DNA of 64,000 bases from Thauera aromatica K172 (GTDB taxonomy: Bacteria; Pseudomonadota; Gammaproteobacteria; Burkholderiales; Rhodocyclaceae). The notes under the pieces are model-generated. The model saw nothing but the letters and a program-made list of their open reading frames with translations, ran no database searches and had not been told where the DNA came from. The translations under genes and the position numbers were made by a program. The stretch covers positions 3,294,041-3,358,040 of the forward strand of contig NZ_CP028339.1 in the NCBI RefSeq assembly GCF_003030465.1, read 5' to 3'. This document shows, in pieces, positions 1 through 27,845 of this stretch. Numbering within the stretch: position 1 is the stretch's first letter; each line of letters opens with the position of its first letter.

Positions 1-470
1 CCGCCGAAACAGCCCTCGATCGAATTACCACCTTCGATCGTCTTGCAGCTGGTCGCATTCTTGAACGTGTTTGCGGCCACGTGCTCCGGCACCGTCGCCG
101 TGCGATGGGTCGGATAAACGTCGACACGGAACGTGTCCGGGTATTTCTTGAGCAGCGCCTGTGTGCCCTCGGAAAGCTTGTCCGCATGTTGGGCCATATT
201 GGACGCAGTGATTTGCAGGACCGGCTTTTCATTCGGGAAGAGGTTCACCGGAATGTCGCCCACTTTCGGCCCCGCGACCGGGCCGGTCTGGCCCCCGGTC
301 CACGCCGGAATCGTCCCGTCCTTGTTGCCGGCTTTTTCGCCGCCGAGCGGCGTCAGCCAGGTTTTGAGCTTGGCCGCTTCGTCCGCGCTCACCGCAGCCA
401 TCGTGCTCTGCATGCCGGCGCTCAGCGCCAGGATGGAGACGCACAGCAAGGTCTTTTTAAACGTGAACAT
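1..470 (-). CDS. DUF1329 family protein, N-terminal part (runs off window)
   Basis: Translation from the ATG at 470 gives a signal peptide (MFTFKKTLLCVSILALSAG, cleavage near MAA) followed by the start of a DUF1329 protein, with the family-typical sequence IPAWTGG near residue 60. A GGAG-type ribosome binding site lies just upstream (475-480). The 3' part is outside the window, so only about 156 residues are seen. The gene follows the DUF1302 gene by 28 bases on the same strand, the usual DUF1302-DUF1329 pairing. Such pairs are predicted cell-envelope proteins of unknown biochemical role, often found near genes for degrading hydrophobic compounds. Co-transcription with the upstream gene is inferred. 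Confidence 0.85.
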   Translation of the reverse strand, partial: MFTFKKTLLCVSILALSAGMQSTMAAVSADEAAKLKTWLTPLGGEKAGNKDGTIPAWTGGQTGPVAGPKVGDIPVNLFPNEKPVLQITASNMAQHADKLSEGTQALLKKYPDTFRVDVYPTHRTATVPEHVAANTFKNATSCKTIEGGNSIEGCFG

Positions 471-498
471 ATTGATCTCCTCGGTCGTTTTATAAGAA

Positions 499-2193
499 TC
501 AGAACGTGCGCTGGATCGTGAGCGATACGAAGTCGCGGTCGCCGTGGAAATTGTCATAGGACAGCTCGCCGGCCGGATTGACGATCGAACCCGAGGAGCC
601 GACGTAGTGGGTGTAGTTCAGCCCGCCCTGCCAGGTCTTGCGGTAGTCGGCCTTCACCCCGATGCTCAGGCTGCCGCCGTTCTCCGACGGGAACAGCACG
701 CCATTGACCGAGGAGCGTCCGGCCAGGCCGTAGTTGACGCCGATCGGCACCTGCAGATCGAGCCCGGGGACGACCTGGAAATATTCCGGCGTGAACACGA
801 ACTGGATCGCGCTGGCTTCGCGGGTGGCGTTCGGGTCGAGCGCGGCGCGGTTGTCGGTGACGCTGAGCACCCGGTTGTAGGCGAACTCGCCGACGAAAGA
901 GGCCCCTTCCCACAGCGCATTGGCCGGCAGGACGCTGATCGCCGACAGGCTCAGATGCATCGTTTTGCCTTTCGGGAAGGTCGCATCGTCATCGTTGTCC
1001 GCCCCGCCCAGGCCGAGGAGGACGTTGCCGGTACCCACCAGCGGCTGGTTTTCGCGGAACGACAGTTCGCCCGAGACGTTCGTCTCCCCCACCAGGGTGG
1101 CAAAGCTGGCGCCGATCGTGCGGATGTTCTCCGCATAGACGAGGACATAGTCGCCATCGACGCCGCGGCCCGGATCGGCGTTCACCCCGGGGCGGATGTA
1201 GAACTGCGGCAGCTTGTCGTGGAACTGGGCGGCGTACAGCCCGTACTCGGTGTCGCCGGCACGGAACTTGACCTGCACGCCGCCCTGGCCGGAGTCCTTG
1301 GCATCGAGGTCATCGCCCCGGCGCAGCGTGCCGTTGGGGCCGAACGGTCCGTACAGGAACTCGCCGCCGGCGCCGGGGAAGTCGGCGAAGGCGAAATAGC
1401 TGCCCGCTCCCGGCAGGCGTGAGTCGCGCCATTCGTACTGGTAGTAGGCGCCGATCGAGACGTCGGCGCTGAGTTGCAGCTGCGCCGAGACCTGGCCGAC
1501 CGGGCGCGCGACTTCCTTGAACTGCGAGTTCGGCACTGACAGCGCACGGGCCAGATCGAGCGGGGTCTGGGCGCCGGCGATGCCGTTGGCGCCGAAGAAC
1601 AGGGTCTCGCCGTAGAGCTGGGTGAAGCGCCCCGCCTTCAGGTTCAGGCCCTTGCCGGCGATCTCGGTGCGGCCATAGACGAAGGCGTCGAGGAACTCCG
1701 CCTTGCGCCCGTGGAGCTTTTCGGTGGCGGTGGTGAATTCGTCGAAATCGGCCGAGCGCTGGTTGAGCGACCAAGCGTAGCGTTGGCTGCGGTCGTTCGA
1801 TTCGTTGTACACCTGGTCGTACCAGGCGGCGCCGCTGACGCGGAAACCCATGTTGTTGCGGTAGCGCAGATCGAATTCGGAGAGCAGGTCGACCCGGTTC
1901 GAAATCAGGCCGCGGCTGAAATTGCGGTCGCCGTCGTTAGTGTTGATCTGCGCCCCCGCATCCGAGGCGGGGCCGTGGCCGTCCTGCTCCTCGACGCGCC
2001 AGCTGGCGTTGTACTTGAGCGTGTTGTCCCAGCGTACCGATAGGTCGGGGTTGCCCGTGTCGACCTTGAACGCATGGGCCTCGGGAATAAGCATGCCGCC
2101 CATGCCGAGGACGCCGACCACGAACGCTGCAAGCCCCTTTCCCGCCGCCCTGCTACCGCAATGGCGCCGCTCCAGCTTACTTCTTGCCTCCAT
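499..2193 (-). CDS. DUF1302 family outer-membrane protein
   Basis: A 564-residue protein beginning at the ATG preceded by AGGAGG seven bases upstream; an in-frame ATG eight codons earlier lacks such a site. Residues 1-41 form a long signal peptide ending in EAHA. The mature part has the DUF1302 start (FKVDTGNPDLSVRWDNTLKYN) and alternating aromatic/polar strands ending in a C-terminal Phe (SLTIQRTF), as in outer-membrane beta-barrels. It is divergent from tdiS, and a motif shared with the bss and bbs promoters lies in the intervening region in the orientation of this gene. A role in moving hydrophobic substrate or in envelope adaptation during toluene growth is an inference. Confidence 0.85.
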   Translation of the reverse strand: MEARSKLERRHCGSRAAGKGLAAFVVGVLGMGGMLIPEAHAFKVDTGNPDLSVRWDNTLKYNASWRVEEQDGHGPASDAGAQINTNDGDRNFSRGLISNRVDLLSEFDLRYRNNMGFRVSGAAWYDQVYNESNDRSQRYAWSLNQRSADFDEFTTATEKLHGRKAEFLDAFVYGRTEIAGKGLNLKAGRFTQLYGETLFFGANGIAGAQTPLDLARALSVPNSQFKEVARPVGQVSAQLQLSADVSIGAYYQYEWRDSRLPGAGSYFAFADFPGAGGEFLYGPFGPNGTLRRGDDLDAKDSGQGGVQVKFRAGDTEYGLYAAQFHDKLPQFYIRPGVNADPGRGVDGDYVLVYAENIRTIGASFATLVGETNVSGELSFRENQPLVGTGNVLLGLGGADNDDDATFPKGKTMHLSLSAISVLPANALWEGASFVGEFAYNRVLSVTDNRAALDPNATREASAIQFVFTPEYFQVVPGLDLQVPIGVNYGLAGRSSVNGVLFPSENGGSLSIGVKADYRKTWQGGLNYTHYVGSSGSIVNPAGELSYDNFHGDRDFVSLTIQRTF

Positions 2194-2417: not shown

Positions 2418-4202
2418 ATGTCCATGCCCGATTCCGGACTCGGCCGCGGAAGAATGCAGGTTTTCGCAAAAATCCGGGCTGCCCGGGCGTCCGCAGCACA
2501 GCAGGGTCTGGTGATCATGAACAAACGCGGCACAGAGGCAGAGGAGACAGACTCCGTGAGTGGAAACGCAATTGCATCAACCGAAACGGAAATGGAAGCG
2601 GATCACGGGAACGATCCCGCCACCGGCTACGAAGTCATCTTCCGCAACACGCCACTAGCGATTTGCCATCTGCGCAATCGTGCGTTCGTTCGCTGCAATA
2701 CCCGGTTCGAGGAATTGTTCGGATACGCAAGAGGTGAGCTCGACAACAAATCGGTACGGCTGCTTTATCCAACCGACGAATCATTTCGGACCATCGGGGA
2801 AAACTATGGTCATTTCTTCGAGCGCCACGACACGTTCAAGGACGAGCGCCCGATCATCCGCAAAGACGGGTCGGTCATATGGTGCATCGTCACCGGCTCC
2901 CTGCTCGATTCATCCAACCCTCGTCTCGGTTCGATCTGGGTTGTTCAGGACATATCCGAACACAAGCGCACGGAAGACGACCTGAAGGCCAGCGTCGAGA
3001 AGCTGGAAATCCTGGTCCACCAGCGGACGCTCGAGCTACACAAGCATGTCAACAAACTCGAGCAGGAAGTCGCGACACGCAAGCTGGCCGAAGAAGTCGC
3101 CAATGAGCACAGGGAAAAATACGAGAAGCTGTTCCACATGCTTCCAATCGGAATATCGATTACCGACAACGAGGGCCGGATCCTCGAAGCCAACCGCCAG
3201 TTCACCGAACTGGTGGGGACACCCGAGAAGCCGCCCATCACCTGGCAACAACTGCCACAGCGCTTCTTCCTCAGCGACGGGACAAAAGTCGCAAGAAAAA
3301 GACTGCCCTGGCGGATTCACGACGTTCAAAAGGATTCGATCAAGAACATCGAAATCGGCATGCGTGAAGAAGAAAGTCGGAAGCAGCGCTGGCTGAGCGT
3401 CAGTTCATCTCTGCTTGAGCTGAAGGGGCAAAAAATGGTCGTGGCCGCCTTCACCGACATCACCTACCGTAAACGGATCGAGGAACTGGAAAGGCTGCGC
3501 CACGCGGAGCTCACCCGCCTCGGGCGCATCAATGCAATGGCCGGAATGGCTGCAGCGCTGGCACACCAGATGGGCCAGCCCCTCGTTTCCGCACTCAACT
3601 ACCTGCAAGGCTGCCGCCTCCGGCTCGAGCACATCAGAGGAGCCGCGGAGATATCTCAATCGCTCGGCCTGGCGATCACGCATCTCGATCAGGCCGGTGA
3701 AATCCTGCGGCGGGTCAAGGATTTCGTCTGCAAGCACACGCCGGAAAGGACGCCGGAGAATATCAACGAAGTCATTCAGGACACTCTCTCCTTTCTCAGC
3801 TTCGACGTCCACCGGCACAACGTTACCGTAAATCTGCAGCTGATACCCTCTCCCCCAGCCGTCCCCCTGTGCAAGATCGAGATTCAACAGGTCCTGTTCA
3901 ATCTGGTGAAAAATGGCATTGAGGCAATGTCTGAAATGGAGCCGGAGTCACGCATACTGACCATCGGAAATGAAATCTCCACAGACGGAAGATCGATGAA
4001 AATATTCGTCCAGGACCATGGGGTCGGAGTCGAGAAGCGAGCAGAAAAACGCGCTTTCGAACCTTACTTCACGACCAAACCGGACGGGCTCGGAATTGGT
4101 CTCACGATTTGCCGGTCGATCATCGAATCGCATGGCGGAGAGCTCTCTTTTTCGAAAACCGGAGAACGCGGATCGAAATTCCAGTTCACACTGCCGATAT
4201 GA
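2418..4202 (+). CDS. tdiS: Toluene-responsive sensor histidine kinase TdiS (TutC-type)
   Basis: A soluble histidine kinase of about 594 residues with no transmembrane segment. It has a first PAS domain (about 75-190), a heptad-rich linker (about 190-235), a second PAS domain (about 235-355), a dimerisation/phosphoacceptor region with ALAHQMGQPL (His about 383) and a C-terminal ATPase domain with an N-box (NLVKNGIEAM), G1 (DHGVG) and G2 (GLGIGLTI). It is followed after 57 nt by a FixJ-type regulator and then by the bss operon, the known tdiSR (tutCB) position in toluene-degrading denitrifiers. It presumably senses toluene or redox state through PAS and phosphorylates TdiR. The start is uncertain: the ATG at 2418 has only a weak ribosome binding site, and an ATG at 2517 is possible. 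Base composition is visibly less GC-rich than in the downstream accessory genes. Confidence 0.9.
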   Translation: MSMPDSGLGRGRMQVFAKIRAARASAAQQGLVIMNKRGTEAEETDSVSGNAIASTETEMEADHGNDPATGYEVIFRNTPLAICHLRNRAFVRCNTRFEELFGYARGELDNKSVRLLYPTDESFRTIGENYGHFFERHDTFKDERPIIRKDGSVIWCIVTGSLLDSSNPRLGSIWVVQDISEHKRTEDDLKASVEKLEILVHQRTLELHKHVNKLEQEVATRKLAEEVANEHREKYEKLFHMLPIGISITDNEGRILEANRQFTELVGTPEKPPITWQQLPQRFFLSDGTKVARKRLPWRIHDVQKDSIKNIEIGMREEESRKQRWLSVSSSLLELKGQKMVVAAFTDITYRKRIEELERLRHAELTRLGRINAMAGMAAALAHQMGQPLVSALNYLQGCRLRLEHIRGAAEISQSLGLAITHLDQAGEILRRVKDFVCKHTPERTPENINEVIQDTLSFLSFDVHRHNVTVNLQLIPSPPAVPLCKIEIQQVLFNLVKNGIEAMSEMEPESRILTIGNEISTDGRSMKIFVQDHGVGVEKRAEKRAFEPYFTTKPDGLGIGLTICRSIIESHGGELSFSKTGERGSKFQFTLPI

Positions 4203-4259: not shown

Positions 4260-4943
4260 ATGCAAGCCACTAAAACCGGAAATGCATCGACTGTTTTTGT
4301 CGTGGACGACGAAGCGTCCGTCAGGGATTCGCTGACCTGGCTCCTCAATTCGATCTCACTGGATGTCCGGACATTCGAATCTGCGAAGGATTTTCTCGAT
4401 GCCGACATCTCATGCACCCATGGCTGCGTGGTCCTGGATGTCAGAATGCAGAACGTCAGCGGTCTGCAATTGCAGCAGGCGCTGTCGGAAAGAGGCTTCA
4501 AGCTGCCGATCATTTTCCTTTCGGCTTACGGCGACGCCCAGATGGGCGCCCAGGCGGTAAAGAAAGGTGCATTCGATTTTCTCCAGAAACCGTACCGGAA
4601 CCAGGACCTGCTCGACGCAGTAAACGCCGCCCTTGCCCTGAACCGGGAGATGGCGGACAAGCAGAATGAAAAACAGAAGCACCTCGACCTTCTTGCCACC
4701 CTGTCGCAACGGGAAATGGAAATTCTGGACAAGGTCGTTGCCGGAAGCAGCAGCAAGGAAATCGCCAAGCTGCTCGGAATCAGTTACAAGACCGTTGAAG
4801 CGCATCGCGGACGCATCATCAGCAAGCTCGGGCTCAAATCTACCGGCGATCTAATGCACTTCGTCATGCGCGGCAGCAGTCATTGCAGCGACTGTGGCCG
4901 GCAGCCCCTGCCGGGAAGTAGCCCCTGCCGGCCCGCCGCGTAG
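4260..4943 (+). CDS. tdiR: FixJ/NarL-type response regulator TdiR (TutB-type)
   Basis: A 227-residue regulator with a strong AAGGAGG site before its ATG. The receiver domain (about 12-125) has the acidic pair in VVDDE, the phosphoacceptor Asp about 60 (VVLDVRM) and the conserved Lys in LQKPY. A LuxR-type helix-turn-helix follows (about 140-205; SSKEIAKLLGISYKTVEAHR). After the last helix is a Cys/Pro-rich tail coded partly by a 14-nt direct repeat (4901-4914 and 4918-4931), so the C-terminus may be longer than usual. It is the presumed activator of the bss and bbs promoters. Its binding site is not proven here, but a box shared by three promoters is described separately. Confidence 0.9.
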   Translation: MQATKTGNASTVFVVDDEASVRDSLTWLLNSISLDVRTFESAKDFLDADISCTHGCVVLDVRMQNVSGLQLQQALSERGFKLPIIFLSAYGDAQMGAQAVKKGAFDFLQKPYRNQDLLDAVNAALALNREMADKQNEKQKHLDLLATLSQREMEILDKVVAGSSSKEIAKLLGISYKTVEAHRGRIISKLGLKSTGDLMHFVMRGSSHCSDCGRQPLPGSSPCRPAA

Positions 4944-5350: not shown

Positions 5351-5419
5351 ACCCTAGGGACCGCCCCCTATGGTTAGGTGTTCACACCAATTGCTGCACG
5401 ATCCTGCACGGCCTAATTT
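5351..5419 (+). promoter_or_regulatory. bss operon promoter with inverted repeat and shared TdiR-type box
   Basis: An inverted repeat with 9-bp arms and a 6-bp spacer (ACCCTAGGG at 5351-5359, CCCTATGGT at 5366-5374; one mismatch between arms) overlaps a box CCCCTAT (5365-5371), 6 nt, GTGTTCACACCAATTG (5378-5393). A weak -35 (TTGCTG, 5391-5396), a 17-nt spacer and -10 (TAATTT, 5414-5419) follow, leaving an untranslated leader of about 80 nt before bssD. Poor hexamers with an adjacent operator suit an activator-dependent promoter. The box recurs before bbsA and upstream of the DUF1302 gene. Confidence 0.6.
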
Positions 5420-5504: not shown

Positions 5505-6500
5505 GTGAAAATTCCTCTTATTACCGAAATACAGAGGTTCAGCCTTCAGGACGGCCCTGGGATCAGGACGACCATCTTCCTGAAAGGTTGCCCACTGCGC
5601 TGCCCCTGGTGTCACAACCCGGAGACCCAAGACGCACGGCAGGAATTCTATTTTTATCCGGATCGCTGTGTCGGCTGCGGTCGCTGTGTAGCCGTCTGTC
5701 CCGCCGAAACGTCCCGCCTCGTGCGCAATTCGGACGGCCGCACGATCGTCCAGATCGACCGCACGAACTGTCAGCGATGCATGCGTTGCGTCGCTGCCTG
5801 CCTGACCGAAGCCCGCGCCATCGTCGGCCAGCACATGAGCGTCGATGAAATCCTGCGCGAGGCGCTATCCGATTCGGCGTTCTACCGCAACAGCGGCGGC
5901 GGCGTCACGATCAGCGGCGGCGACCCCCTCTACTTTCCCGATTTCACACGGCAACTCGCCAGTGAATTGCACGCCCGCGGGGTTCACGTCGCGATCGAAA
6001 CCTCATGCTTTCCAAAGCAAGGAAAAGTCGTCGAATCGATGATCGGCATCGTCGACCTCTTCATCGTGGATCTGAAGACGCTCGACGCGCACAAGCATCT
6101 CGATGTCATCGGCTGGCCACTTGCCCCGATTCTCGCGAATCTCGAAACCCTGTTCGCCGCCGGGGCAAAGGTCCGCATTCATATCCCGGTGATTCCCGGC
6201 TTTAACGACTCGCACGCCGATATCGACGCTTACGCCGAGTATCTCGGCAAGCATGCAGCGGCGATCAGCGGAATCGATCTGCTCAATTTCCACTGCTACG
6301 GCGAGGGCAAATACACGTTTCTCGGCCGGGCCGGCAGTTATCAGTACAGCGGCGTGGACGAGACGCCTGCCGAAAAGATCGTGCCACTGGCGCAGGCACT
6401 GAAGGCCCGGGGGCTTGCCGTCACCATCGGCGGCATCGTGGGCATCGCCAATGGCAAGAACGAACTCACCGGGGATATCGCCCTGGAAGTGCACCACTGA
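5505..6500 (+). CDS. bssD: Benzylsuccinate synthase activating enzyme (radical SAM glycyl radical activase)
   Basis: A 331-residue protein from a GTG start with a GAGG site upstream; earlier in-frame ATGs would run into the promoter. The radical-SAM motif CPLRCPWC (Cys near residues 28-35) binds the [4Fe-4S] cluster that cleaves S-adenosylmethionine. A ferredoxin-like insert with two Cys clusters follows (CVGCGRCVAVCP and CQRCMRCVAACL), as in activases of the benzylsuccinate synthase branch, then the SAM-binding GGGVTISGGDPLY segment. It installs the glycyl radical on BssA. First gene of the operon, 22 nt before bssC. Confidence 0.96.
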   Translation: MKIPLITEIQRFSLQDGPGIRTTIFLKGCPLRCPWCHNPETQDARQEFYFYPDRCVGCGRCVAVCPAETSRLVRNSDGRTIVQIDRTNCQRCMRCVAACLTEARAIVGQHMSVDEILREALSDSAFYRNSGGGVTISGGDPLYFPDFTRQLASELHARGVHVAIETSCFPKQGKVVESMIGIVDLFIVDLKTLDAHKHLDVIGWPLAPILANLETLFAAGAKVRIHIPVIPGFNDSHADIDAYAEYLGKHAAAISGIDLLNFHCYGEGKYTFLGRAGSYQYSGVDETPAEKIVPLAQALKARGLAVTIGGIVGIANGKNELTGDIALEVHH

Positions 6501-6732: not shown

Positions 6733-9318
6733 ATGAGCGATGTACAGACGTTGGAATACAAGGGGAAAGTCGTTCAGTTCGCCCCCGAAAATCCGCGCGA
6801 AGCCGAGATCCCGGCCGATGAACTGCACGAACATCTGCAAAATCCGTCTACCGAGCGCACCCGCCGGCTGAAGGCGCGCTGCCGCTGGAAACATGCCGCG
6901 GCGGGCGAGTTCTGCGAGAAGGGCGTCACCGCCGGGATCGAGCGCATGCGCCTGCTCACGGAGTCGCACTGGGCCACGAGAGGAGAGCCGGAGCCGATCC
7001 GTCGCGCGCACGGATTGAAGAACATCCTCGACAAAAGCACGCTCGTTCTGCAGACCGACGAATTCATCGTCGGCTACCACGCCGAAGACCCGAACATGTT
7101 TCCGCTCTATCCGGAACTGTCCTACATGGCAGTGCAGGACTATCTGAAGAGCAAATATTCGCCGCAACCGGCCAAGGAAGCCCAGGAGATCGTCGATTAC
7201 TGGAAGCCGTTCAGCCTGCAGGCCCGCTGCGAGCCGTATTTCGACCCGGTCGACCTGCACCGCGGCTACCAGGTCAGTACGATCGAAGGGCCGGTTTTCG
7301 CAACCGGCTACAACAGCGTGATTCCGCCGTACGAGACGGTGCTCGAAGACGGTTTGCAGGCGCGGATCGCGCTGGCCGAAGAGAAAATCGAGCATGCCCG
7401 TGCGGAAATGGAAAAATTCCCCTGGCACGCTCCCAGCGGTCTCGAATGGATCGACAAGATCGACAACTGGAAAGCAATGGTGATCGCCTGCAAAGCGGTC
7501 ATCGCCTGGGCACGCCGTCACGCACGCCTGTGCAAGATCGTCGCCGAACACTTCGAAACCGACCCGAAACGCAAGGCCGAGCTGCTCGAAATCGCCGACA
7601 TCTGCCAGCGCATGCCCGCCGAGCCGGCACGCGGCCTGAAGGACGCGATGCAGTCGAAATGGTTCACCTTCCTGATCTGCCACGCGATCGAACGCTATGC
7701 GAGCGGCTTCGCGCAAAAGGAAGACTCGCTGCTGTGGCCGTACTACAAGGCGAGCGTGATCGACAAGACTTTCCAGCCGATGGAGCACAAGGATGCGGTC
7801 GAACTGATCGAGATGGAACGACTGAAGGTCTCCGAGCACGGCGCCGGCAAGTCGCGCGCCTACCGCGAGATCTTCCCCGGCTCAAACGACCTCTTCATCC
7901 TGACCCTGGGCGGCACCAACGGCGACGGCTCGGACGCCTGCAACGACATGACCGACGCCATCCTCGAGGCGACCAAGCGCATCCGCACGACGGAGCCATC
8001 GATCGTGTTCCGCTACTCGAAGAAGAATCGCGCCAAGACCTTGCGCTGGGTTTTCGAGTGCATCCGCGACGGGCTCGGCTATCCTTCGATCAAGCACAAC
8101 GAGCTCGGTGTGCAGCAGATGCTCGAGATGGCCAAATACAGCCGCAACGGCAACGGTGCAACACCGGAAGAAGCGCACTACTGGGTCAACGTGCTGTGCA
8201 TGGCGCCGGGGCTGGCCGGCCGGCGCAAGGCGCAGAAGACCCGATCCGAGGGCGGTAGCGCGATCTTCCCGGCGAAGCTTCTCGAAATCACCCTCAACAA
8301 CGGTTACGACTGGTCGTATGCCGACATGCAGATGGGGCCGGAAACCGGCTACGCGAAGGATTTCGCGACTTTCGACCAGCTCTGGGAAGCCTTCCGCAAG
8401 CAGTATCAGTACGCGATTGCGCTGGCGATCCGTTGCAAGGATGTCTCGCGAACCATGGAGTGCCGTTTCCTGCAGATGCCTTTCGTCTCCGCACTCGACG
8501 ACGGCTGCATGGAACTGGGCATGGACGCGAACGCCCTGTCGGAACAGCCCAATGGCTGGCATAACCCGATCACCTCCATCGTCGCAGGCAACTCGCTCGT
8601 CGCGATCAAGAAGCTCATCTACGACGAGAAGAAGTACACCATGGCCCAGCTCATGGACGCCCTCCAGGCGAACTGGGAAGGCTACGAGGAGATGCGCCGC
8701 GACTTCAAGAATGCGCCGAAGTGGGGCAATGACGACGACGACGCAGACGTGCTGATCAGCCGCTTCTACGAGGAAATCCTCGGCGGCGAGATGATGAAGA
8801 ACATCAACTACTCGGGCGGTCCGGTGAAGCCTACGGGGCAGGCGGTCGGCCTCTACATGGAAGTCGGCTCGCGCACCGGCCCCACTCCGGACGGGCGCTT
8901 CGGCGGCGAGGCGGCTGACGACGGCGGCATTTCTCCGTATTCGGGCACCGACAAGAAGGGGCCGACCGCCGTGCTGCGCTCGGTGTCCAAGGTGCAGAAG
9001 AACCAGAAGGCCAATCTGCTCAACCAGCGTCTGTCGGTGCCGATCATGCGCAGCAAGCACGGCTTCGACATCTGGCACGCCTACATGGACACCTGGCACG
9101 ACCTCAACATCGACCACGTGCAGTTCAACGTGGTCAGCACCGAGGAGATGAAGGCCGCGCAGCGCGAGCCGGAAAAGCACCAGGACCTGATCGTGCGCGT
9201 ATCCGGCTTCAGTGCCCGCTTCGTGGACATCCCGACCTACGGCCAGAACACGATCATTGCCCGCAACGAGCAGAATTTCAACGCACAGGATCTGGAGTTC
9301 CTGAACGTCGAACTCTGA
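6733..9318 (+). CDS. bssA: Benzylsuccinate synthase alpha subunit (glycyl radical enzyme)
   Basis: An 861-residue glycyl radical enzyme that adds the methyl group of toluene to fumarate, forming (R)-benzylsuccinate. The active-site cysteine is Cys489 (VNVLCMAPG) and the radical glycine is Gly825 in RVSGFSARF near the C-terminus, each four positions below the Cys493/Gly829 numbering I recall for related BssA. A GGAG-type site precedes the ATG. Length and motifs are intact and no frameshift is seen. The gene is followed by a strong hairpin before bssB. The enzyme is cytoplasmic and oxygen-sensitive; activation requires BssD. Confidence 0.97.
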   Translation: MSDVQTLEYKGKVVQFAPENPREAEIPADELHEHLQNPSTERTRRLKARCRWKHAAAGEFCEKGVTAGIERMRLLTESHWATRGEPEPIRRAHGLKNILDKSTLVLQTDEFIVGYHAEDPNMFPLYPELSYMAVQDYLKSKYSPQPAKEAQEIVDYWKPFSLQARCEPYFDPVDLHRGYQVSTIEGPVFATGYNSVIPPYETVLEDGLQARIALAEEKIEHARAEMEKFPWHAPSGLEWIDKIDNWKAMVIACKAVIAWARRHARLCKIVAEHFETDPKRKAELLEIADICQRMPAEPARGLKDAMQSKWFTFLICHAIERYASGFAQKEDSLLWPYYKASVIDKTFQPMEHKDAVELIEMERLKVSEHGAGKSRAYREIFPGSNDLFILTLGGTNGDGSDACNDMTDAILEATKRIRTTEPSIVFRYSKKNRAKTLRWVFECIRDGLGYPSIKHNELGVQQMLEMAKYSRNGNGATPEEAHYWVNVLCMAPGLAGRRKAQKTRSEGGSAIFPAKLLEITLNNGYDWSYADMQMGPETGYAKDFATFDQLWEAFRKQYQYAIALAIRCKDVSRTMECRFLQMPFVSALDDGCMELGMDANALSEQPNGWHNPITSIVAGNSLVAIKKLIYDEKKYTMAQLMDALQANWEGYEEMRRDFKNAPKWGNDDDDADVLISRFYEEILGGEMMKNINYSGGPVKPTGQAVGLYMEVGSRTGPTPDGRFGGEAADDGGISPYSGTDKKGPTAVLRSVSKVQKNQKANLLNQRLSVPIMRSKHGFDIWHAYMDTWHDLNIDHVQFNVVSTEEMKAAQREPEKHQDLIVRVSGFSARFVDIPTYGQNTIIARNEQNFNAQDLEFLNVEL

Positions 9319-25880: not shown

Positions 25881-27050
25881 TTACCAGTCGCTTACCAGCA
25901 TGTGCATCGTGCATGCCGCGTGTTCCGTGCCCGACAAGCCGCCGCCGGTCACGTGCGTCATCGCCACCCGCGGCACCGGCTCGACCTGGTAGCCGGGGCA
26001 CTGGTTGCGCATCTGCTTGACGCTGGCGGCAATCTGCGCCGCGCCCGAAGCGCCGATCGGATGGCCGTACGACAGCATGCCGCCGCGCGGGCTGACGACG
26101 CATTTGCCGCCGTGGGTCGCGTTGCCGTCGCGCAGGAACTTGAGCCCCTCGCCTTTCGGACACAGGCCGAGGCATTCGTAGTACAGCAGTTCGGCGATCG
26201 TGAAGGCATCGTGCAGTTCGACGATATTCACGTCCTCGGGGCCGATGCCCGACTCCTCGTAGAGCTGATGCGCGGTCTCCTCGGTGATGTCGTCGCCGGT
26301 GATGTCACGCGGACGGTTGTGGTACGGCCCCGAGCGCACGACCGAGCCGGCGACCCGGATCGGCTTCTTGATGCCGAGCTTCTTCACCATCTCTTCCGAG
26401 CACACCACGACCGCGCCGGCACCGTCGGCGATGCCGCAGCACTGCTGCAGCGTCAGCGGCGAGGCGACGACGCGCGAATTCACCACCTCCTCGATCGAGA
26501 TCTCGCCCTTGAACCAGGCATAGGGGTTGTTGGTGGCGTGGCGGCGGTTCTTCACCGTGATCATCGCCAGATCCTCGGCGGTAGCGCCGGTCTCGTACAT
26601 GTAACGCTGGGCGCGCATCGCGTACTTGCCGGTCATCACCGCGCCATGCACCGTCTCGATATCCGACATCGCGGTCGCGAACGCGGTGCCCTGCGCCATG
26701 TGCAGCGTATGGTTCTCGCAGCCGATGCCGATCGCCACGTCGGCGAGCCCCAGCGCCACATCGCGCACCGCCAGATGGATCGCCATGCCGCCCGCCGAGC
26801 AGGCGCTCTCGACGTTGATGATCGGCAGGTGGCCGCACATGCCCAGATCCTTGAGCACGGTCTGCCCGGTGACCATGCCGTTGGTGCCGTTGCCGACATA
26901 GGCGCTCTGCACCATCGTCGGACGGTCGATGTTCGACGCCTTCAACGCCTCCAGTGCCGCCGCCCGACCCAGCACGTCGAAATCGACTTCATGCCGACCG
27001 AATTTCGTCTCGCCGACCCCGGCGATATAGACCTTGCGCTCCAGTTTCAT
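25881..27050 (-). CDS. bbsB: Benzoylsuccinyl-CoA thiolase, thiolase subunit BbsB
   Basis: A 389-residue thiolase-family protein with the nucleophilic cysteine in [13 protein letters not shown] (about residue 85), the HDAF segment and [14 protein letters not shown] near the C-terminus. It carries out CoA-dependent cleavage of benzoylsuccinyl-CoA to benzoyl-CoA and succinyl-CoA, the last step of the bbs pathway. It works with the small zinc-binding protein BbsA encoded 20 nt upstream. Succinyl-CoA is then reused by BbsEF. Confidence 0.94.
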
Positions 27051-27070
27051 TTGTCGTCACTCACCGAGGA

Positions 27071-27505
27071 TTAGATCTTGCGGAACTTGTAGCTGATCAG
27101 CGGCACACCGTCGCGGTTGTCGCGCACCGGCCCGACCGTCAACTCGACCTCGTCGTCGCAGCGGAAGCTGCCCGGCGCGCCTTCGAGCTGGGCGAAGATC
27201 CGCAGATTCTCGGGCAGGTCGATATAGCCGAAGGAATAGGGAGTCTTCATTCCCGCCTGGCCGATGAAGTTGTCGCTGAAGCTGTAGAGCTTGCCGCGGC
27301 GGCTGAGCGGCACGACCTCGAACTCCTCGCCCCAGCAGCTCGGGCACGGGCTCAGTTTGGGGAAATCCAGCTGCCCGCATTTCTTGCAGCGGTAGCCCTT
27401 GAGATAGGGCGCGCGGCCGTCGGCGGGCGCCTCGAGAAGATCCGGGTGGAAGAACGTGATATCCGGCTTCTTTTCCGGCTTCTTGTTCGGTTTTTGCTCT
27501 GACAT
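27071..27505 (-). CDS. bbsA: Benzoylsuccinyl-CoA thiolase, Zn-finger/OB-fold subunit BbsA
   Basis: A 144-residue DUF35/OB-fold protein from the ATG at 27505 with GGAGG upstream. A rubredoxin-like zinc finger (CKKCG, then CPSCW; about residues 41-57) is followed by an OB-fold. A Lys-rich N-terminus (NKKPEKKPD) precedes it. In the characterised thiolase the BbsA subunit is required for activity with BbsB. First gene of the bbs operon; the shared promoter box ends about 67 nt upstream. Confidence 0.93.
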   Translation of the reverse strand: MSEQKPNKKPEKKPDITFFHPDLLEAPADGRAPYLKGYRCKKCGQLDFPKLSPCPSCWGEEFEVVPLSRRGKLYSFSDNFIGQAGMKTPYSFGYIDLPENLRIFAQLEGAPGSFRCDDEVELTVGPVRDNRDGVPLISYKFRKI

Positions 27506-27545: not shown

Positions 27546-27602
27546 ATTAAATCCCGCAGGCCGGAACGCAACAATCGGTCCGAACACCTAGGCGCTAAGG
27601 GG
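27546..27602 (-). promoter_or_regulatory. bbs operon promoter with shared TdiR-type box
   Basis: On the minus strand CCCCTTA (27602-27596) is followed after 8 nt by GTGTTCGGACCGATTG (27587-27572), then -35 TTGTTG (27574-27569), a 17-nt spacer and a good -10 TTTAAT (27551-27546). The leader to bbsA would be about 35 nt. Over 24 positions from the TAGG before GTGTT to TTGC, 19 are identical to the bss promoter. The rest of the 340-nt gap up to the bestrophin gene (27603-27845) holds nothing recognised. Confidence 0.6.
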
Positions 27603-27845
27603 CAACCCCACAGCCCGGCGCGGGGCAAAGATCCAGCGCGCGCCATCGATCGCGGGACGGACCAGCGCGCGGCGGGCGCGCACGGCAAGCCCCGCCAATG
27701 CCTCTGCGCAGGGCGCATCGGCGGTCGACGTGGTCGCAGTGCCGGCCCGATGGCGGCAGGGCGCTATTCAGCCCTCATCCCAGACGGGGAAAGGGCTGGC
27801 GGAGGGAAGACAGTCGGAGGGAACGGCCGGAGTCCTCACGGCCCC

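Follow-up and report, generated by a model that had tools for sequence, protein, structure and literature searches.

In Azoarcus sp. CIB, the response regulator TdiR activates the promoters PbssD, PbbsA and PtdiS, according to PMC5874301. The same paper credits Kube 2004 with proposing the palindrome GGTGTTCGCACC, located upstream of the -35 of PbssD and PbbsA, as the TdiR site, gives ATAAAC-N4-GTTTAT as the tod box read by TodT/StyR-type regulators, and notes that orfB-E, which neighbour bbs in strain CIB, have EbN1 orthologues of unknown function. In Magnetospirillum 15-1, ARGTGTYCGCACC stands before both bssD and bbsA (PMC7285207).

A second group of described systems concerns tolerance rather than catabolism. 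Deletion of AmeABCD lowers monoterpene tolerance in Castellaniella defragrans (PMC6394551). For the same four protein families, control by AphS, AphR and AphT has been predicted, and PMC6449761 connects them with the handling of toxic aromatics. In A. aromaticum EbN1, EtpR controls a putative solvent efflux cluster together with p-ethylphenol catabolism (PMC4630880).

We analysed a stretch of 64,000 nucleotides from Thauera aromatica K172 (the window), for which an earlier note had described one promoter box common to bss, bbs and the divergent DUF1302 region. The sharing of one box by bss, bbs and the DUF1302/tdiS region is supported by the analysis below. The note's further claim, that the site model came from reading the sequence alone, does not stand, since the core GGTGTTCGCACC had already been proposed (Kube 2004 in PMC5874301) and ARGTGTYCGCACC appears in PMC7285207. 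The bss/bbs half of the finding is thus already published, and the new part is the third copy. The accessible parts of PMC5874301 and PMC7285207 make no mention of this third site, and we met neither the site nor a link between TdiR and the cassette behind it in the passages of open-licence PubMed Central papers that we consulted; older papers could mention either.

Three TdiR-type boxes in the window

The genes and control regions that concern us are the following, with L083 coordinates for genes lying to the left of the window.

L083:7031-about 9683, (-) strand: MMPL/RND gene (Pfam MMPL), left of the window
L083:9649-10815, (-) strand: YCF48-like gene (Pfam), left of the window
1-557, (-) strand: start of the DUF1329 gene (Pfam), which continues left of the window (L083:11100-12557)
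499-2193, (-) strand: DUF1302 protein, first gene of the cassette, predicted from its family to lie in the outer membrane (Pfam PF06980, E 1.4e-124)
2218-2235, no strand: perfect palindrome ACTGAACG-AC-CGTTCAGT, immediately preceding the ribosome-binding site of DUF1302
2354-2417, (-) strand: third TdiR-type promoter, facing DUF1302
2556-4202, (+) strand: tdiS, sensor kinase, for which the 548-aa homologue in G213 suggests GTG 2556 as the likely start (the longest ORF begins at 2418)
4260-4943, (+) strand: tdiR, FixJ/StyR-type response regulator (Pfam Response_reg and GerE)
5357-5419, (+) strand: bss promoter box
5505-6500, (+) strand: bssD (radical SAM activase), which comes first behind the bss box
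6733-9318, (+) strand: bssA, glycyl-radical benzylsuccinate synthase subunit
25881-27505, (-) strand: bbsA (about 27057-27505, no Pfam match) and bbsB, a thiolase (25881-27050), first behind the bbs box
27546-27609, (-) strand: bbs promoter box

The best solved relative of TdiR is 1yio, which we take to be StyR. DUF1302 likely starts at the ATG at 2193, which follows AGGAGG (the longest ORF extends to 2217).

Direct reading of the window sequence confirmed the three boxes at the places given in the earlier note, with the following parts.

2417-2407, (-) strand: third box, distal dyad GGGGCTGCCCC
2396-2385, (-) strand: third box, proximal dyad AGTG-TTAG-CACC
2395-2380, (-) strand: third box, GTGTTAGCACCAATTG, preceded at 8 nt by the upstream element CCCCTAA
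2382-2354, (-) strand: third box, -35-like TTGCCG (2382-2377), 17 nt, weak -10-like TAGCTT (2359-2354)
5357-5368, (+) strand: bss box, distal dyad GGG-ACCG-CCCCC
5377-5388, (+) strand: bss box, proximal dyad GGTG-TTCA-CACC
5378-5393, (+) strand: bss box, GTGTTCACACCAATTG, preceded at 6 nt by the upstream element CCCC(C)TAT
5391-5419, (+) strand: bss box, -35-like TTGCTG (5391-5396), 17 nt, -10-like TAATTT (5414-5419)
27609-27599, (-) strand: bbs box, distal dyad GGGGTTGCCCC
27588-27577, (-) strand: bbs box, proximal dyad GGTG-TTCG-GACC
27587-27572, (-) strand: bbs box, GTGTTCGGACCGATTG, preceded at 8 nt by the upstream element CCCCTTA
27574-27546, (-) strand: bbs box, -35-like TTGTTG (27574-27569), 17 nt, -10-like TTTAAT (27551-27546)

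All three boxes carry a GGTG-N4-CACC dyad abutting the -35, as GGTGTTCACACC in bss and with one arm base off in bbs (GGTGTTCGGACC) and in the third box (AGTGTTAGCACC). The agreement of bss and bbs at 19 of 24 positions holds for TTAGGTG...CTGC by our own count. The CCCCTWW upstream element of the earlier note is present, but is better seen as a single arm of a second inverted repeat, GGGG-N3/4-CCCC, so that the window boxes have two dyads with centres about 22 bp apart. Over 26 sites the best conserved columns read TTA(G/A)GTGT....ACC(A)ATTG, with GGG and CC upstream and TT following; most of them show a clear T..A.T hexamer at 17 nt from the -35-like TTG, but it is unclear in, for example, the Telmatospirillum cassette site, and the spacing of the distal dyad varies in Aromatoleum-type cassettes. 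The third site has TTCGA in place of the TTAGG left flank and a poor -10, TAGCTT. A scan of the third-site region (2150-2620) found no consensus pair resembling the sigma-70 TTGACA/TATAAT; weak -35 and -10 elements are as expected for an activator-dependent promoter.

Specificity of the box across genomes

Searched across the 3.71-Mb genome, the pattern GTGTTNNNACCRATTG matches exactly at three places, and these all lie inside the window; no further site differs from it by one base, and 46 differ by two. When up to three mismatches are allowed, the window holds 20 matches against a shuffle mean of 14.15, and 8 of 100 shuffles reach 20, so only near-exact matches are informative. Because the pattern was derived from the same three sites, we made a held-out test using a 45-column matrix. 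It was built on 14 sites, bss and bbs, taken from eight other genomes; two pairs of them are identical, which leaves 12 distinct sequences. These genomes were six Aromatoleum, Herminiimonas and a Telmatospirillum metagenome-assembled genome (MAG), and the set contained no Thauera or cassette sites; the A. tolulyticum bbs site, cut by a contig end, was omitted. The held-out matrix scored bbs at 43.6, bss at 36.8 and the third site at 29.3. The next best score in the 76 kb around the window was 3.8, and no more than 10.6 was reached in 3.04 million positions of first-order Markov sequence. The corresponding profile gave three matches in the window's own genome at E<=10 (150 of 680 first-look candidates scored): bss at 2.2e-6, bbs at 2.7e-6 and the third site, the weakest of the three, at 0.0033.

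Across 395 genomes of the family, BssA was found in 14 (E<=1e-150) and a profile box in 12 (E<=0.001, stricter filters). All 12 fall within the 14 BssA genomes (one-sided Fisher 3.6e-21, uncorrected for relatedness), and none of the 381 BssA-negative genomes has a match at this threshold under the same filters. The two BssA genomes lacking a box at E<=0.001, G017 and G116, have TdiR-like proteins that are only about 61% and 53% identical, respectively. There was no profile match in the sulfate-reducer-type bss genomes G208, G210 and G211 (G209 was left out), nor in G203, which we counted as the same genome as G017. The single-mismatch pattern gave many background matches in 13 other bss genomes, including the four sulfate-reducer-type genomes G208-G211, and its matches outside the clusters were disregarded. 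An exact match at G206:C37:10861 overlaps an ORF and is absent from the profile matches; we took it as chance. A BssA scan of 398 genomes of the phylum returned the window's own genome only, and a TdiR search of plasmids at E<=1e-50 returned no match.

Boxes and cassettes in relatives

The box is kept before bss and bbs in relatives, whose sites were used to build the matrix and profile that we scanned across genomes. The third copy also stands, with the relatives showing an association with a DUF1302-type cassette. Of the 16 denitrifier-type bss genomes, 15 have a cassette box with the same facing, though a weak one in G213 (E 0.148), G206 (E 0.0396) and G116 (E 0.25); this count takes each genome once, with six pairs of handles merged on identical coordinates. 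G017 has bss, bbs and TdiR and gave no profile match genome-wide at E<=10, and no cassette box was found; the pieces of this genome that we read hold degenerate boxes only (matrix 17.2 at bss, 10.3 at bbs). The sole match in G116 at E<=10 precedes the start of the cassette, where the matrix finds a degenerate box (19.0).

Seven Aromatoleum and Herminiimonas genomes have profile matches at bss, bbs and cassette in each. Their results contain just two further matches, one to half of a bbs box that is split at a contig end (G201), the other at E 1.24 (G205). The Telmatospirillum MAG (G207) has four matches, at bss, bbs, the cassette and a contig without an obvious gene (C215). The final list comprises 45 sites over 67 columns, of which 36 are distinct, with bss, bbs and cassette contributing 15 apiece; it counts both G679 clusters separately and leaves out G017, G116 and the C215 match.

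Some individual sites deserve separate mention. G679 carries two bss-bbs-cassette clusters with six boxes in total (L193/L200 and L194/L201). A strong TdiR-type box of the Telmatospirillum MAG (L195 3912, (-) strand, matrix 39.8, E 2.0e-6) lies near a contig end with no clear gene behind it, and the adjoining ORFs run the opposite way and read as ABC-transporter-like. In A. anaerobium (G206), the cassette box at L107 7188, (+) strand, is degenerate (GTGTTCGTCCCAGTTG, matrix 37.8) and the bssA match runs only to residue 641, which may point to decay of the toluene cluster. In G213, the bss and third boxes (L105 5442 and 9878) carry the same T-to-C change in the spacer (GTGCT), which the bbs box is without.

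Adjacent DUF1302, DUF1329, YCF48/COG4447 and RND genes were all found by Pfam. The window-type RND protein matched Pfam MMPL and had no NCBIfam match; its Aromatoleum-type counterpart matched HAE3 (TIGR00921) at 1.5e-43, under the curated cut-off. A solved-structure search with the MMPL and DUF1329 proteins returned nothing at E<=1. The cassette resembles the AmeABCD solvent-tolerance system, and its most likely role is to clear toluene or other hydrophobes from the envelope by export.

The arrangement of the cassette differs among the relatives. In both Thauera genomes (the window genome, G000, and G213), DUF1302-DUF1329-YCF48-MMPL runs divergent from tdiS. In Aromatoleum and Herminiimonas, the cassette box faces YCF48-MMPL-DUF1302-DUF1329; where one contig holds both boxes, it shares the strand of the bbs box and is 7.1-7.7 kb upstream of it. 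The partly sequenced Telmatospirillum cassette starts divergent from bbs, with one box each, and is distant from both other types (YCF48 32%, MMPL 30%). G100 has a window-type four-gene cassette upstream of bbs and away from tdiS (84%, 93%, 79% and 77% identity to the window for DUF1302, DUF1329, YCF48 and MMPL), with a near-perfect box (matrix 56.5) 11.5 kb from the bbs box.

Between window-type and Aromatoleum-type cassettes, DUF1302 and MMPL gave no BLASTP match at E<=1, and DUF1329 and YCF48 were 26% and 30% identical. At E<=1e-3, the two types had no DUF1302 ORF of the set as a common match. On these two DUF1302 results we rejected the window DUF1302 as an orthologue of the Aromatoleum bbs-side DUF1302. 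With the proteins of the two types so far apart, the operator precedes strongly diverged cassettes. DUF1302 genes are numerous (66 across nine bss genomes), and by profile just one cassette per genome stands behind a box.

A proposed TdiR regulon and its alternatives

From these sequence comparisons, we consider it very probable that the box is the TdiR operator and that TdiR~P activates three operons: bss, bbs and a hydrophobe-efflux cassette. TdiR~P, as a FixJ/StyR-type activator, would bind the GGTG-N4-CACC dyad abutting the -35, whose centre would lie near -43 if transcription starts about 7 nt behind the -10. It may also bind the second dyad, GGGG-N3/4-CCCC, about two helical turns upstream, which would make two dimers in all, and the bound regulator would bring RNA polymerase to a promoter that has poor -35 and -10 elements of its own. 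The arms of the regulon would then be toluene activation (bss), beta-oxidation (bbs) and, through the third copy, an export cassette, with induction of the cassette by toluene and its export function being predicted. These bacteria would thus probably switch on toluene breakdown and self-protection together. What counts against this reading is the low score of the third site and of its G213 counterpart, its altered left flank and poor -10, the lack of a sigma-70 consensus pair in its region, the unique palindrome before DUF1302, the poor matrix match before the second cassette described below, and the G017 genome with bss, bbs and TdiR but no profile match.

The third site could alternatively serve mainly tdiS autoregulation, its orientation toward DUF1302 being incidental, which we regard as unlikely. 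TdiR does activate PtdiS in strain CIB (PMC5874301), and a box points away from a divergent tdiS at about 160-234 bp in the window, in G213, in all 11 Aromatoleum-type bss-side loci read and in G017 (to the start of the tblastn match), distances that leave out the extra tdiSR pairs beside some Aromatoleum-type cassettes. This holds whichever operon is opposite tdiS: the cassette in both Thauera, bss in the Aromatoleum type and bbs in G017. Against this alternative, G100 retains the same-facing, near-perfect box before the same type of cassette far from tdiS, which gives the cassette its own claim to the box, and Aromatoleum-type cassettes own a box although tdiS sits divergent from bss. The -35/-10 arrangement of the third site also faces DUF1302, and in Herminiimonas, an exception to the spacing, tdiS lies about 890 bp from the nearest box. 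No box was found near tdiS in G116, and tdiS was not located in Telmatospirillum. With tdiS beginning on the opposite strand about 160 bp behind it, the third site may also autoactivate tdiSR, and a double role for cassette and tdiS is likely.

As a separate observation on the two-component genes, four Aromatoleum-type loci (L040, L044, L199 and L200) have tdiS divergent from bss with no tdiR found nearby at E<=1e-15, and three of those four genomes have a tdiS-tdiR pair upstream of the cassette (L084, L087 and L193). These three genomes would have two sensors and possibly one regulator.

It is also possible that the palindrome at 2218-2235 is the operator of another, TetR-type regulator. That the cassette is mainly under such a regulator at ACTGAACG-N2-CGTTCAGT, with the TdiR-like box a decaying remnant, seems improbable to us. 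The palindrome occurs just once in exact form in the genome and its conservation extends to G213; of the three sites, the third is the weakest, and its -10 is poor. Yet the G100 cassette has a strong box and no palindrome was found upstream of it, and both Thauera genomes keep the core AGTG-N4-CACCAATTG and nearly keep the distal dyad (GGGG to AGGG), though the sequence around them has many differences. No TetR-type gene was among the few flanking ORFs scanned, a small sample.

A coincidental match is scarcely credible and was rejected as the origin of the third copy, since the chance-level count of window matches at three mismatches is outweighed by the held-out score far above the Markov maximum, by the place of the site as third of only three genome-wide profile matches, and by the boxes at relatives' cassettes of the same and other types.

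A second cassette behind another promoter

The window genome holds a second complete window-type cassette at C1, about 3,097.7-3,104.7 kb (L211, G000:C1:3090000-3108000). It is 96% (DUF1302), 91% (DUF1329), 100% (YCF48) and 97% (MMPL) identical to the tdiS-side cassette, and 3,535 bp with 100% identity between the copies suggest recent copying or gene conversion. The second cassette adjoins a p-cresol methylhydroxylase flavoprotein (PDB 1dii, E 6.9e-218) and sigma-54-type regulators. BLASTN homology of the two copies begins within DUF1302, with none between the promoters at E<=1e-3.

The promoter of the second cassette gave no profile match. About 300 nt ahead of the second DUF1302, and facing it, is one poor matrix match (10.0, close to the 10.6 reached in Markov sequence), which we take to be chance. 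A sigma-54-like element, TGGCATGATCCATGCT, lies near the second cassette, with 0.10 expected in 18 kb under a consensus that was loosened after viewing the sequence. Near-identical proteins behind two different promoters in one genome amount to a natural promoter-swap experiment.

Compared by eye, the DUF1302 leader and first codons of the box-bearing G100 cassette are closer to the box-free second copy than to the tdiS-side copy (L190, L211), which hints at a past exchange of DUF1302 5' ends.

We see a broader reading as evenly balanced between true and false: that the cassette is a third, near-obligatory regulon arm in TdiSR-type denitrifiers, that the two-dyad operator captured strongly diverged, probably non-orthologous cassettes, and that the duplicated cassette of this genome was rewired, one copy to TdiR and the other to the promoter on the p-cresol-methylhydroxylase side. 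If this is true, the control of the pathway would have export built in, either of the substrate or of benzylsuccinate, the inducer. Apart from this broader reading, the analysis gives TdiSR a defined, genome-specific operator and a putative third target, and it predicts that bss-type denitrifiers induce a hydrophobe-efflux cassette along with toluene catabolism. The profile is usable for recognising denitrifier-type toluene clusters in genomes.

Comparison with known systems

The boxes share with the published TdiR operator of PbssD and PbbsA the core dyad, its position abutting the -35 and the two operons. Beyond that operator, we add a third conserved site at an efflux-type cassette, a second upstream dyad and a genome-wide test of specificity. 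The tod box is, like the proximal dyad, an inverted repeat with a 4-nt spacing, but its half-site is ATAAAC and that of TdiR GGTG (PMC5874301).

The remaining likenesses concern the cassette. AmeABCD combines DUF1302, DUF1329, YCF48/COG4447 and RND proteins in the gene order A-B-C-D, as in the window cassette, a likeness of families rather than one drawn from sequence comparison. AmeABCD is tied to monoterpene metabolism, whereas the window cassette faces a TdiR-type box beside toluene genes. The cassettes predicted under AphS, AphR and AphT place the same four families under a local regulator of aromatic catabolism (PMC6449761), and the EtpR cluster of EbN1 likewise has putative solvent efflux controlled together with a catabolic cluster (PMC4630880). 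The regulators in these cases are of other kinds (EtpR is sigma-54-dependent) and serve phenol or p-ethylphenol, in contrast to the two-component TdiSR and toluene of the window. Together, the Ame, Aph and EtpR examples make a plug-in efflux cassette wired to the local regulator a known pattern, in which TdiR is new.
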